DNA of 18,692 nt from Clostridia bacterium (GTDB lineage: Bacteria > Bacillota > Clostridia > Oscillospirales > CAG-272), in the NCBI GenBank assembly GCA_024404435.1, contig JAKSPW010000004.1, positions 1-18,692 of the forward strand, given 5' to 3'. A model generated the notes under the pieces. That model saw only the letters and a program-made list of their open reading frames with translations, made no database searches and was not told where the DNA came from. Below, one piece after another: positions 561 through 13,989 of the stretch; positions within the stretch are counted from its first letter, which is position 1; every line of letters starts with the position of its first letter. A program made the position numbers and the translations under genes.

Positions 561-597
561 TTTATCTATATCCTTTCGGTTTGTTTATTCTTTCGGA

Positions 598-692
598 GTG
601 AAGTTCTGCCTGCGGCAGAGTGAAGTGCCGCCTGCGGCGGCGTGAAGTTTTGCCTTCGGCAAAGTGAAGTATTTTGCCGCGGTGCGGCAAAA
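598..692. repeat. Tandem hairpin array A, linker GTGAAGT
   Basis: Four perfect small palindromes are separated by the 7-mer GTGAAGT (598-604, 620-626, 642-648, 664-670). The stems are TCTGCC/GGCAGA with loop TGC (605-619), GCCGCC/GGCGGC with loop TGC (627-641), TTTGCC/GGCAAA with loop TTC (649-663) and TTTTGCCGC/GCGGCAAAA with loop GGT (672-692). The linker is constant while the stems differ, so stem sequence is free but pairing is kept. The array lies inside the transcribed leader of valS, between the T-box terminator and the ribosome binding site. Its function is unknown. Confidence 0.85.
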
Positions 693-696
693 AGAT

Positions 697-922
697 AAAA
701 AATCGTCCTGACGTATCAGGACGATTTTTTCGCGGTACCACCTGACTTCACGCGTAATGCGTGCAGCTCATGTTTCCTTAACGCGGAACACGGCGCGGAC
801 TACGTTTCACCCGCGCGGCTCTGAAGCGACTTCACGGGGGCTTGTCTGCGGCGCTCTCACCTTCCGCCGCTCTCTTTGAGACTGCATTCTCGCTACTGCT
901 CTTCGTTATTGCCTTTTAACAG
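697..922 (-). promoter_or_regulatory. T-box leader of valS with terminator/antiterminator
   Basis: The conserved T-box AGGTGGTACCGCG is read on the complementary strand at 743-731. It is followed by the usual CGTCCT block and an intrinsic terminator at 730-697 (stem AATCGTCCTGA/TCAGGACGATT, loop TACG, then T residues). This is the tRNA-sensing riboswitch class that reads the charging state of a matching tRNA. A GUC valine codon at 830-828, in the context GTGAAGTCGC, is a reasonable specifier candidate and agrees with the downstream gene. I did not fold Stem I in full, so the specifier is an inference. Confidence 0.93.
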
Positions 923-1156: not shown

Positions 1157-3211
1157 ATGGAAAATCTCAAATACAACACTCCCGTCGTGAAAAGCACGTT
1201 CACCGAAAAAGAATATCCTCTCGTGACCGACGCGGACGTTTACGTCTCTGTTTCGGGCGACGACTCCGCAGACGGATCGTTTGCTCATCCCGTGAGGACT
1301 TTTGAGGGTGCCCGCGATCTCGTCAGAAAAAAGAAAAAGACGGCAAAGGGCGAGATCAGGGTCGCGTTCATGGCAGGAGAGTACGGCAGGCTCGAGGGAC
1401 TTTCTCTCACCGCCGAGGACGCCGGCACGGAAGAGACACCTATAAAATACTGCAAGTACGGCGACGGAGATGTCGTTTTCGACAACGGACTGTCCCTCTT
1501 CGGAAAGGACTTCAAAAAGCTTTCTGACGGCGAAAAGGCTCTTTTCCCCGAAAAGGCCGCAGATCATATAAGGAAGCTTTCTCTTGACTCCGTTTTCCCC
1601 GACGGTATGCCGGAGGACGTCAAGATCTTCGGCGGAGACAAGCCGATCTGGGAGGCGAGATTCCCGAACAAGAACGACGGCAGAGACGTTTACATGAAAT
1701 TCATGCTTCAGGTGTTTGAGAACAAGAAAAACATTTACGACCCGAGGCTGAAGATCCTTTCTCCTCTCACCGGACAGCTTGAAAAGATCGCGGACTTCAC
1801 GGACGTGAAGCTCGTCGGATATATCATGTACGGCTGGAGAGTCAATTCGTTCTATATAGACTCGTACGACAAGACGACGCATATCATGGAGTTCGACCGC
1901 GAGAGGCTTCCCTCCGACTTTTATACAGGTGCTGCGGGAGCCGGAATCCGCACGCCGCAGATGCCGCTCGACGAGGTCTATCTGTCGAACGCGCCGGAGC
2001 TCCTCGACGACAACGGCGAGTACTGGTACGACAAGAAGAACAACGTGATCTACGTTTACGAGCCCGTCGAGGAGTATACGATCGGTCTCGGCGGAAAGTT
2101 CGCGTCTCTTGAGGGCGCGGATTACGTGACGTTCGAGGGACTTACGTTCAAAAACAACACGGACACGGCGATCACCTGCACGGATTCCGCTCACGTGACC
2201 TTCGACGGAGTGAAGATGAGCGGCGTCGCCGCCTGCATCACCGCTTCCGGGAATTCTGACTTCTTCACCGTCAGAAACAGCGAGTTCGAGAGATTCATCG
2301 GCTGCTGCATCAGGCTTGCGCCGACGAGACACCGCACGACGCTCGAGTCGAACCACATGGTGGTCGACAACAACTACGTCCACGACTTCGGCGACTCGAC
2401 GAGATTCAACAATCAGGCTGTAGCCGACGGAGCGATCGGCTCGGTCATCTCGCACAATTTCTTCAAGACGAGCCCGAACGGAGCAGTTAACCTCGGAATG
2501 CTCTCGACCGTCGAGTACAACGTCTTCGACAACCTCATGACATGCACGCAGGACTACGGCATCGTCTACACGTGGGAAGCGATCTCGACCGCAAGGCAGA
2601 ATCACATCAGATACAATCTGTTCACGAACATGTGCGGCGGCCAGACGTACGGAAACTACATCGACGATTTCTCACAGGATCAGTACATCTACGGCAATAT
2701 TTTCTATAAGTGCGGTGCGTGCGGAGTCATGCTCCACAATGCGCGCAACTGCTTCGTCTACGACAACTTCTTCTACGGCTGCGGCATGAACTCCAACGGC
2801 TACGGCTACTATAAGGACGGCGGCGTTCAGGAGGGACTTCTGCCCGACGGCACGGGCTGGGAGGCCGAGTTCGAAAGATACTACCGCGGACGCATCAACG
2901 AGGGCGAGGAAGGGTATGAGGTCTGGAAGGCTCAGTTCCCGTCTCTCTACGAGCTCGAGCCGGACGTTGAACATCCGGAGAACTACAACAGCTTCTTCTG
3001 CCCGTGGAACTCGATCCACCACAATCTGCTCGTCAACGCGACCTCGAACGTCTTTAACTGCGCGACCGAAAGGCTCGGCGACGTACACGACAACGAGTGG
3101 CTCGACGACAGCGAGAACCCGTACTTTGTCGACCCGACGCGCGGCGACTACACGCTGAAGGACGGCGTTACGTTCTTTGAGATACCGTTTGAGAAAATAG
3201 GACGCTATTGA
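1157..3211 (+). CDS. Right-handed parallel beta-helix protein, possible glycoside hydrolase
   Basis: A 684-residue protein beginning MENLKYNTPVVKS. The ATG at 1157 is chosen because GTGAGGT lies just upstream; longer reading upstream would run into the promoter. Residues 29-40 (YVSVSGDDSADG) match the opening strand of beta-helix carbohydrate enzymes. A TAEDAGTEETPIKY block follows, then a non-helical insert (about 110-260), then repeated coils such as VTFEGLTFKNN, VTFDGVKMSG and FFTVRNSEFERF through about residue 600. The layout resembles GH141-like and related beta-helix glycoside hydrolases or lyases, but I cannot assign a substrate or catalytic residues. There is no signal peptide or membrane segment, so it is probably cytoplasmic and would act on imported oligosaccharides. 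It is monocistronic, with its own promoter and terminator. The general fold is confident; the enzymatic role is not. Confidence 0.88.
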   Translation: MENLKYNTPVVKSTFTEKEYPLVTDADVYVSVSGDDSADGSFAHPVRTFEGARDLVRKKKKTAKGEIRVAFMAGEYGRLEGLSLTAEDAGTEETPIKYCKYGDGDVVFDNGLSLFGKDFKKLSDGEKALFPEKAADHIRKLSLDSVFPDGMPEDVKIFGGDKPIWEARFPNKNDGRDVYMKFMLQVFENKKNIYDPRLKILSPLTGQLEKIADFTDVKLVGYIMYGWRVNSFYIDSYDKTTHIMEFDRERLPSDFYTGAAGAGIRTPQMPLDEVYLSNAPELLDDNGEYWYDKKNNVIYVYEPVEEYTIGLGGKFASLEGADYVTFEGLTFKNNTDTAITCTDSAHVTFDGVKMSGVAACITASGNSDFFTVRNSEFERFIGCCIRLAPTRHRTTLESNHMVVDNNYVHDFGDSTRFNNQAVADGAIGSVISHNFFKTSPNGAVNLGMLSTVEYNVFDNLMTCTQDYGIVYTWEAISTARQNHIRYNLFTNMCGGQTYGNYIDDFSQDQYIYGNIFYKCGACGVMLHNARNCFVYDNFFYGCGMNSNGYGYYKDGGVQEGLLPDGTGWEAEFERYYRGRINEGEEGYEVWKAQFPSLYELEPDVEHPENYNSFFCPWNSIHHNLLVNATSNVFNCATERLGDVHDNEWLDDSENPYFVDPTRGDYTLKDGVTFFEIPFEKIGRY

Positions 3212-3243: not shown

Positions 3244-3281
3244 GAAGAGAAAAGAGAAGAGAGAAAAGAGAAGAGAAAAGG
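3244..3281. repeat. Homopurine GA-rich tract
   Basis: About 38 bp of only G and A, built from GAAGAGA and AAAGAGA units, directly after the terminator. It is low-complexity sequence with no coding or regulatory signal that I can name. Confidence 0.7.
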
Positions 3282-3284
3282 TAC

Positions 3285-3428
3285 ATTTCCGCCGTGGCGG
3301 AAATGAACATATCAATAATGGAGCGAAGCGAGAATTCATGACAGTCTGCCACGGCAGAGTGTCAATTCATGCTACCTGCCGCAGGCAGGTAATCGATTCA
3401 TGATTTTCCATCGGAAAATCAATTCATT
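3285..3428. repeat. Tandem hairpin array B, linker AATTCATG
   Basis: The array opens with palindrome ATTTCCGCC/GGCGGAAAT (3285-3304). AATTCATG or a near copy then recurs at 3333-3340, 3364-3371, 3395-3402 and 3421-3428. Between the copies are three unrelated hairpins: GACA.TCTGCC/GGCAGA.TGTC (3340-3363, one mismatch), TACCTGCC/GGCAGGTA with loop GCA (3373-3391) and GATTTTCC/GGAAAATC with loop ATC (3402-3420). The segment 3316-3341 is identical to 10701-10726 in array C. Confidence 0.85.
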
Positions 3429-3473
3429 TTCATCGAGAGATCATAGCCAAACAAAACGGCGGGAATAATTTCT

Positions 3474-3696
3474 CGGTAGGGGTCGGCGCCCTCGACGACC
3501 CGAATGAATTATACAAAATCATTTTGCCTTTGGAAATGCGTTTTTGCCTTTTATTCAATTTTTCAACATAGAATTCTTTTTGTGCACGGACGGGTCGTCG
3601 AGGGCTCGGAGCACGCGCGGAGCGGTGCGACTCCCTACGGCTTGCTGAAAATATTTGTACGGCTGTCCGGGTCGTCGAAGGCGCCGACCCCTACCG
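3474..3696. mobile_element. MITE-like element with 29 bp terminal inverted repeats
   Basis: The left end (3474-3502, starting CGGTAGGGGTCGGCGCC) and right end (3668-3696, ending GGCGCCGACCCCTACCG) are inverted copies with one mismatch in 29. A third partial copy of the inner end, CGGGTCGTCGAGGGC, is at 3591-3605, suggesting a nested or composite element. Each end can itself fold (GGGTCG/CGACCC). The A+T-rich interior holds no convincing gene. I see no target-site duplication beside the ends. No transposase is present, so any movement would be in trans. The call as a mobile element is an inference from structure. Confidence 0.55.
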
Positions 3697-10649: not shown

Positions 10650-10701
10650 TTGGGGGAAGAACTTTCTTGAAAGAAAAGTTCTGCCCCCAAAAACCTTTTT
10701 T
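10650..10701 (+). terminator. Intrinsic terminator of the rpmH-jag operon
   Basis: A long stem pairs TTGGGGGAAGAACTTT with AAAGTTCTGCCCCCAA (one bulge and a few mismatches near the loop), then AAACC and six T residues. It starts 18 nt after the jag stop. The array C hairpins begin immediately after it. Confidence 0.82.
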
Positions 10702-10794
10702 AATGGAGCGAAGCGAGAATTCATGAACTTTTGCGTCAGCGAAAGTTCAATTCATGCGCAAAGCGCAATTCATGCCGCGCCGCGGCAATTCATG
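10701..10794. repeat. Tandem hairpin array C, linker AATTCATG
   Basis: AATTCATG occurs exactly at 10718-10725, 10749-10756, 10767-10774 and 10787-10794. Between the copies are GAACTTT.GC/GC.AAAGTTC with loop GTCA (10725-10748), GCGC/GCGC with loop AAA (10756-10766) and GCCGCG/CGCGGC (10774-10786). Each stem begins with the last G of one linker and ends with C just before the next. The leading 26 bp (10701-10726) are identical to 3316-3341. Confidence 0.85.
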
Positions 10795-10809
10795 CCCCTC
10801 TGCCCCACC

Positions 10810-13824: not shown

Positions 13825-13850
13825 ATATCGTTTGGCGATCAGATAATTTA

Positions 13851-13989
13851 GTGAAATATTTGCCTCGCGGCAAATGTGAAATAATTTGCCGGGCAAATTG
13901 TGAAATATTCTCGTTTCACTCGAATGTGAAATGAAATAAATCCCTGACACGCGCCGCAGCGCATTTCACAAATCTCCGAGGGGATTTAT
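13851..13989. repeat. Tandem hairpin array D, linker GTGAAAT
   Basis: GTGAAAT occurs at 13851-13857, 13876-13882, 13900-13906 and 13926-13932, with an inverted ATTTCAC at 13963-13969. Stems between the copies are ATTTGCC/GGCAAAT (13858-13875), AATTTGCC/GGCAAATT (13883-13899) and a weak ATTC/GAAT pair (13907-13925). GCGC/GCGC (13951-13962) and AAATCTCC/GGGGATTT with one wobble pair (13970-13987) follow. ATAAATCCC (13936-13944) can pair with GGGATTTAT (13981-13989), enclosing the distal part. No gene is seen in 13825-14039. Confidence 0.82.

Follow-up and report, generated by a model that had tools for sequence, protein, structure and literature searches.

Introduction

REP sequences and REPINs, with their RAYT (Y1) transposases, are short hairpin units that are oriented and dispersed and that occur in facing pairs. 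The BOX repeats of Streptococcus pneumoniae are called parasitic non-autonomous elements in the parts of the account used here, and the pneumococcal trp leader harbours one of them between two T boxes, the riboswitches being judged still functional (PMC3049150). Perfect stems can have a purely mutational origin, as template switching can create and mend them in one event, according to the portion of PMC8794818 on which we draw. A further structured motif, Gut-1 (Rfam RF01706), was rated 'Y' for RNA and not cis-regulatory in the sections of Weinberg et al. 2010 (PMC2864571) consulted; among the matches listed by an open-access literature search, Gut-1 or RF01706 was found only in that paper, and a search of the same literature for descriptions of such repeats gave nothing useful.

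Here we describe hairpin arrays in a stretch of 18,692 nucleotides (the window), which is contig C183 of a Clostridia genome of 1.5 Mb in 248 contigs, about 80% complete. The reading that we favour, with moderate confidence, is that the array upstream of a gene taken as valS represents one copy of a repeat that is dispersed, non-autonomous and probably mobile, with the Gut-1 of Rfam as its core. The name Gut-1 is already known, and what is new is the evidence that its copies are oriented modules of a dispersed repeat.

Results

The hairpin array in the valS leader

On the minus strand the order of features is T-box leader, terminator, array, Shine-Dalgarno-like AAAGGA and the ATG (560-558) of a gene that we take to be valS from its protein (Table 1). 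An initial annotation had placed the array between the T-box terminator and the valS Shine-Dalgarno sequence, which is borne out by the sequence, by cmscan and by the hairpin positions. It had also described four perfect palindromes spaced by an identical 7-mer, and we find all four hairpins within 598-692 perfectly paired, with GTGAAGT starting at 598, 620, 642 and 664. Shuffling, which the same annotation had proposed as a check, leaves such linker-spaced palindromes far above chance: identical 7-mers around a perfect palindrome (stem of at least 5) occur six times in the window, with a longest chain of three, against a mean of 0.007 cases, a maximum of one and a longest chain of one in 300 dinucleotide shuffles of the window. 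In the whole genome the pattern GTGAART-N9-27-GTGAART is found 16 times and its reversed control not at all. A looser search of 111 loci for any 7-mer linker with a palindromic spacer gave 64 matches, many of them plain coding sequence, against 17, 6 and 13 in three shuffles.

Table 1. Coordinates of the valS leader features, the units of the hairpin array and the second element in the window
Feature	Position	Strand	Basis
T-box leader, RF00230, 117.2 bits	714..918	-	cmscan
T-box terminator hairpin and T-tract, immediately preceding the array in the transcript	697..730	-	
5' part (186 aa) of the gene taken as valS, truncated by the contig end	3..560	-	name presumed
Shine-Dalgarno-like AAAGGA	571-576	-	sequence
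Gut-1-type one-way hairpin array, GTGAAGT-linker variant	598..692	+	cmscan match 596-675 (+)
Linker 1, GTGAAGT	598..604	+	sequence
Hairpin 1, TCTGCC-TGC-GGCAGA, 6-bp stem, loop TGC (valS-sense strand: GCA)	605..619	+	
Linker 2, GTGAAGT	620..626	+	sequence
Hairpin 2, GCCGCC-TGC-GGCGGC, 6-bp stem, loop TGC (valS-sense strand: GCA)	627..641	+	
Linker 3, GTGAAGT	642..648	+	sequence
Hairpin 3, TTTGCC-TTC-GGCAAA, 6-bp stem, loop TTC (valS-sense strand: GAA)	649..663	+	
Linker 4, GTGAAGT	664..670	+	sequence
Hairpin 4, TTTTGCCGC-GGT-GCGGCAAAA, 9-bp stem, loop GGT (valS-sense strand: ACC, not GNA type)	672..692	+	
Second Gut-1-type element, with three GTGAAAT-linker hairpins followed by GAAATAAATCCC and inverted linker ATTTCAC	13849..13969	+	cmscan

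When the leader RNA is folded, the terminator hairpin and the four array hairpins form separate units (z -6.9 versus shuffles). Together with the position of the array between terminator and Shine-Dalgarno sequence, this fold could be taken to indicate an element specific to valS regulation, acting for example on translation or stability of the read-through mRNA, and the array had indeed been annotated as lying inside a regulated leader. However, the array is downstream of the terminator and so is transcribed only in read-through RNA, it leaves the T-box, the terminator and the Shine-Dalgarno sequence intact, and the same kind of element is found at many other loci. Moreover, none of 109 other valS upstream stretches (104 of which extend over all 420 nt and 41 of which include a T-box motif) contains the array, as judged by the presence of two GTGAART linkers, and it is thus not a general feature of valS leaders. 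A regulatory role specific to valS is for these reasons very improbable, and the valS copy is probably a tolerated passenger.

One of the 109 stretches (L097) holds a hairpin array with a different linker, CGATATG. The best ValRS relatives come from metagenome-assembled Clostridia, several of them labelled Ruminococcus; the two closest (89% and 87%) have no T-box motif beside the start codon in the stretch inspected, and therefore do not serve as clean empty sites.

Similarity to Gut-1

The initial annotation knew of no named element of this form, which proves wrong, as the array resembles Gut-1 over the whole model. With cmscan at a relaxed threshold it aligns to model positions 1-77 of 77 with 43.2 bits (E 1.1e-5), and all three consecutive hairpins of the model are paired in the alignment. 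The second copy in the window (13849-13937, plus strand) also matches the whole model, with 43.8 bits (E 7.5e-6). As both fall below the curated gathering score of 50 bits, neither is filed as a formal Gut-1 member. Further copies in the same genome lie above this cut-off (66.2, 60.2 and 50.6 bits), and elements from other genomes of the family reach 76.2 and 70.4 bits. The array at valS is a lineage-specific copy of the scattered repeat filed in Rfam as 'Gut-1'.

Some stems recur in the window with other linkers, as had been noticed before: TTTGCC/GGCAAA with GTGAAAT at 13858-13875, and TCTGCC/GGCAGA with AATTCATG near 3345-3358. The earlier interpretation of the hairpins as exchangeable cassettes does not follow from this, since shared ancestry of Gut-1 copies explains the recurring stems more simply.

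Two more arrays, with AATTCATG linkers and an identical 25-base start, TAATGGAGCGAAGCGAGAATTCATG, are situated at 3316-3430 and 10701-10800 of the window, and neither has an Rfam match. Elsewhere in the same genome an array with ATATCAT linkers is present (L352 1526-1593, contig C62). The four linker types of this genome (ATTTCAC, ACTTCAC, ATATCAT and AATTCAT) fit the consensus ANWTCAY; CGATATG and GCTAAAT, from other genomes, do not. The window also contains a 29-base inverted repeat, 97% complementary, with its arms at 3474-3502 and 3668-3696, 165 bases apart, and near-identical hairpins, CATTTCCGCC-GGCGGAAATG, at 1008-1036 and 3278-3306 on both sides of a 708-aa ORF. The 683-aa protein piece at 1160-3211 is matched 18 times in its own genome and as many as 57 times in a congener, and belongs to a greatly expanded paralogous family.

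Spread across genomes and absence at comparable sites

Within the family, 102 of 146 genomes have matches to the Gut-1 model (E at most 0.001), and in 81 of these the cut-off is exceeded; the richest genome has at least 29 copies, 29 being the number of candidates scored there. In an even draw across the phylum Gut-1 was found in at least 5 of 398 genomes, our own included, which is a lower bound because fewer candidates were scored and the filters were strict. One of 14 control genomes, E. coli, has a match, which is below the cut-off and which we count against the interpretation as a dispersed repeat. The linker pattern is found in up to 98 pairs per genome (G144), with none for the reversed control. 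As a measure of presence the pattern count (123 of 146 genomes) proved overstated, some genomes having non-palindromic matches alone (in G006 all seven), and the Gut-1 counts are therefore used instead.

By a rough ORF call, 77 of 98 clusters lie outside ORFs of at least 90 codons. The Gut-1-type arrays are multicopy, dispersed, structured and intergenic, as is expected of a MITE or BOX-like repeat. A preference for gene ends was considered and dropped, as the 98 clusters adjoin 75 3'-sides and 61 5'-sides, no clear bias given the same rough ORF calls.

Genome G121 gives evidence of copying between sites. One 241-base element has seven further places there at 92-99% identity over at least 150 bases, some of which could be the two halves of a single copy on different contigs. 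Its matches differ in number between close species, with 18 in G121, nine in G589 and two each in G570, G579 and G593, counts that can be lowered by genome completeness (53 to 96% among the genomes compared; G589 53%, G570 83%). Twelve of 20 chosen array stretches of G121 sit at a contig end, as expected where near-identical copies break assemblies.

Downstream of a gene that we take to be pnp, a GTGAAAT element is present in only one species of 27, G121 itself. The 27 loci come from 29 searched genomes of its genus, G121 included; four of the downstream stretches are shorter than 600 nt, among them that of G121, whose copy ends with the contig and so has no right flank. The two closest relatives of G121, at 98.9% and 97.2% identity over the protein piece, show a plain terminator beyond the stop codon. 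This occupancy of one site in 27 at pnp, with none among the 109 others at valS, is the pattern of presence and absence at orthologous sites that would be expected of a mobile repeat, the comparisons being between species and not between strains of one species. Two elements of the window did not lend themselves to an empty-site comparison: the gene next to the one at 13851 has diverged too far within the genus (best identity 60%), and the protein beside the one at 3316 has so many paralogs that it offers no clean ortholog. In a further species (L381) the site downstream of pnp holds an ATGAATT-linker array, which resembles the AATTCATG-linker arrays of the window.

Anatomy of the units

To describe the units we collected 524 spacers (261 distinct), of which 207 with at least 60% symmetric pairing were kept and 54 dropped; as they were collected via exact linkers, linker conservation is partly built in, and as the units are related to each other, the counts below are not independent. 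Of 131 near-perfect odd-length units, read on the ATTTCAC strand, 93 have a GNA and two a TNC triloop, and 121 have C-G as closing pair. Even-length units have GNNA tetraloops in 34 of 52 cases (GNRA 18, GNYA 16). Hairpin 4 of the valS array, with loop ACC on the GNA strand, counts against the reading that we favour, as does the score of this array below the Rfam cut-off.

The 108 distinct clusters include 41 one-way arrays and 61 in which two arrays face each other. In these composite elements, as judged by eye, the linkers change together, as GTGAAAT/ATTTCAC or GTGAAGT/ACTTCAC, and few are mixed (L176, L250). Read on one strand, the forward halves have TNC in 44 and GNA in none of 52 triloops, and the reverse halves TNC in none and GNA in 32 of 50, so that the loop type tracks linker direction and flips within one composite element.

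Genome G114 provides a view of related arrays, with 14 of 17 fetched stretches sharing their right end. The last four slots of these 14 paralogous arrays hold 55 linker-bounded hairpins, of which 54 are perfect despite paired stem changes such as ACGCC/GGCGT (8) versus ACGC/GCGT (6) in slot 2, and TTTGCC/GGCAAA (6), TTCGCC/GGCGAA (5) and TTCGC/GCGAA (2) in slot 4. The earlier observation that pairing is conserved while stem sequence changes thus extends across paralogs, and the hairpin-based copying mechanism that had been suggested for it fits if it acts at the DNA level. Imperfect and recombinant units do occur, which we count against a dispersed repeat made of perfect hairpins; an eleven-hairpin array of G114 (L264) has a repeated three-unit block and three imperfect units.

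That repeated block is what would be expected if arrays arose locally by tandem-repeat slippage with quasipalindrome correction and then spread vertically, with no mobility at all, and template switching could in principle both produce and maintain the perfect stems (PMC8794818, in the portion used here). However, the further G121 places matching the 241-base element need copying between sites, as does a unit order that by eye seems conserved across genera, and slippage as the sole process is improbable.

DNA hairpins or RNA

If Gut-1 is a structured noncoding RNA, with its three hairpins, UGAAAU linkers and multiple copies, then the valS array would be such an RNA fused into the leader. The rating of Weinberg et al. 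2010 (PMC2864571, as far as consulted), the fold of the valS leader, which is far better than that of its shuffles, and the conservation of pairing under sequence change all speak for this. Against it, there are at least 29 copies in one genome, comparable sites in relatives lack the element, unit number varies, and in 61 of the 108 distinct clusters the motif faces itself on both strands with flipping loop type, so that a single transcript of a composite element would hold one half of the opposite loop type.

The stems point in the same direction. Mismatches among 1264 pairs, read on the GTGAART strand, are G-T 11, A-C 16, C-T 50 and other 14, the C-T class apparently stemming largely from units such as ATCTCGC...GCTCGAT. 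The same count on 55 tRNA acceptor stems from the same loci (385 pairs) gave G-T 26, A-C 2 and other 3. Unlike tRNAs, the array stems show no G-U preference. Purine preference is a feature of RNA GNRA loops, and the GNNA units here are without it. GNA and GNRA loops exist in RNA too, however, and the loop argument is therefore not proof of DNA. Folding energy was rejected as a test of strand, as nearest-neighbour energies with DNA or RNA parameters fail to separate the two strands. C(GNA)G minihairpins are described as exceptionally stable in DNA in the part of PMC6479982 used here (citing Yoshizawa 1997 and Hirao 1994). Taken together, the evidence favours Gut-1 copies being oriented DNA hairpin modules over their being one RNA, and we find a noncoding RNA unlikely.

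Discussion

We propose that the valS array belongs to a dispersed repeat whose unit would be an oriented module, a linker ATTTCAC (ACTTCAC at valS) with a short perfect hairpin whose loop, on the ATTTCAC strand, has in most cases the form C(GNA)G or C(GNNA)G. Such units would be strung as one-way arrays or as two facing arrays, and in this lineage a copy of the repeat would have come to lie between the valS start and the T-box terminator. Perfect stems may be kept by hairpin-templated (template-switch) repair during replication, which their paired changes fit, and unit number may change through recombination between linkers. The conserved linkers and loops would fit a protein that recognizes both on a single strand of the DNA, and a putative factor may thus recognize the hairpins when they are extruded or single-stranded.

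A bolder proposal, possible in our judgement although doubtful, is that Gut-1 is not an RNA at all but the first mobile array of oriented DNA minihairpins, in which linker plus C(GNA)G hairpin forms the site of a strand-specific enzyme, and arrays with other linkers (AATTCATG, ATATCAT, CGATATG, GCTAAAT) are sister families. The putative enzyme would cut, copy or insert hairpins, and stems would vary freely because only linker and loop are read.

Searches for PF01797 and Y1-like proteins revealed no autonomous partner or transposase for the arrays. PF01797 has no match in our own genome (80% complete) or in the five array-richest genomes (G144, G114, G161, G121 and G063); the sixth (G022) has one weak match below the cut-off and the eighth (G018) full IS200-type ones. 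A Y1/RAYT transposase was rejected as partner, since PF01797 does not follow array number over the 146 genomes, and just one of 20 loci around weak Y1-like matches has an array nearby. A GCTAAAT-linker array (L197 191-255) is located about 750 bases from a weak Y1-transposase-like frame.

An unsystematic look at element flanks recognized no target-site duplication. Flank pairs with at least 11 matching bases number 13 of 77 for an element's own flanks and 24 of 308 for permuted ones. Insertion into terminator loops was considered and set aside, as three of four complete copies suggest it by eye but the overall excess is weak. Locus-specific inverted repeats of 13-27 bases enclose some elements (L397, L398, L399, L177, L423), and in several cases an A-tract precedes and a T-tract follows, an arrangement suggestive of insertion in the loop of a bidirectional terminator.

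Listed as a certain noncoding RNA since 2010, Gut-1 now looks like a dispersed repeat of DNA hairpins that is common in one large family of Clostridia. The evidence that its copies are oriented modules of such a repeat calls this listing into question; if the DNA reading is true, covariation in Gut-1 is no evidence of RNA function, the Rfam entry is misleading, and one could begin to look for the factor that recognizes linker and GNA loop.

Among known systems, REP sequences and REPINs resemble the arrays in their short, oriented, dispersed hairpin units and facing pairs, but in the arrays stem sequence varies freely, and PF01797 matches are lacking in five of the six array-richest genomes. 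Template-switch footprints share the paired stem changes and perfect stems (PMC8794818, in the portion used here); however, they reflect a mutation process and not an element, and leave dispersal and linkers unexplained. BOX elements (boxA-boxBn-boxC) are likewise modular, structured and intergenic with a variable number of units, whereas the combination seen in the arrays, an invariant 7-mer linker and stems that vary freely, is absent from the BOX description in the parts compared (PMC3049150), the comparison being by description only. The BOX copy between two T boxes is the nearest published precedent for the valS array, and with this array there is a further instance of a T-box leader that has received a structured repeat. 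Gut-1 itself, with three hairpins, UGAAAU linkers and CUUCG-like loops, is like both Gut-1-type arrays of the window, as the full-length cmscan matches indicate. The valS array departs from it in its GTGAAGT instead of GTGAAAT linkers, its fourth hairpin and its score below the cut-off, and, where Rfam lists Gut-1 as one noncoding RNA, the copies described here provide evidence for oriented DNA modules within larger repeats.
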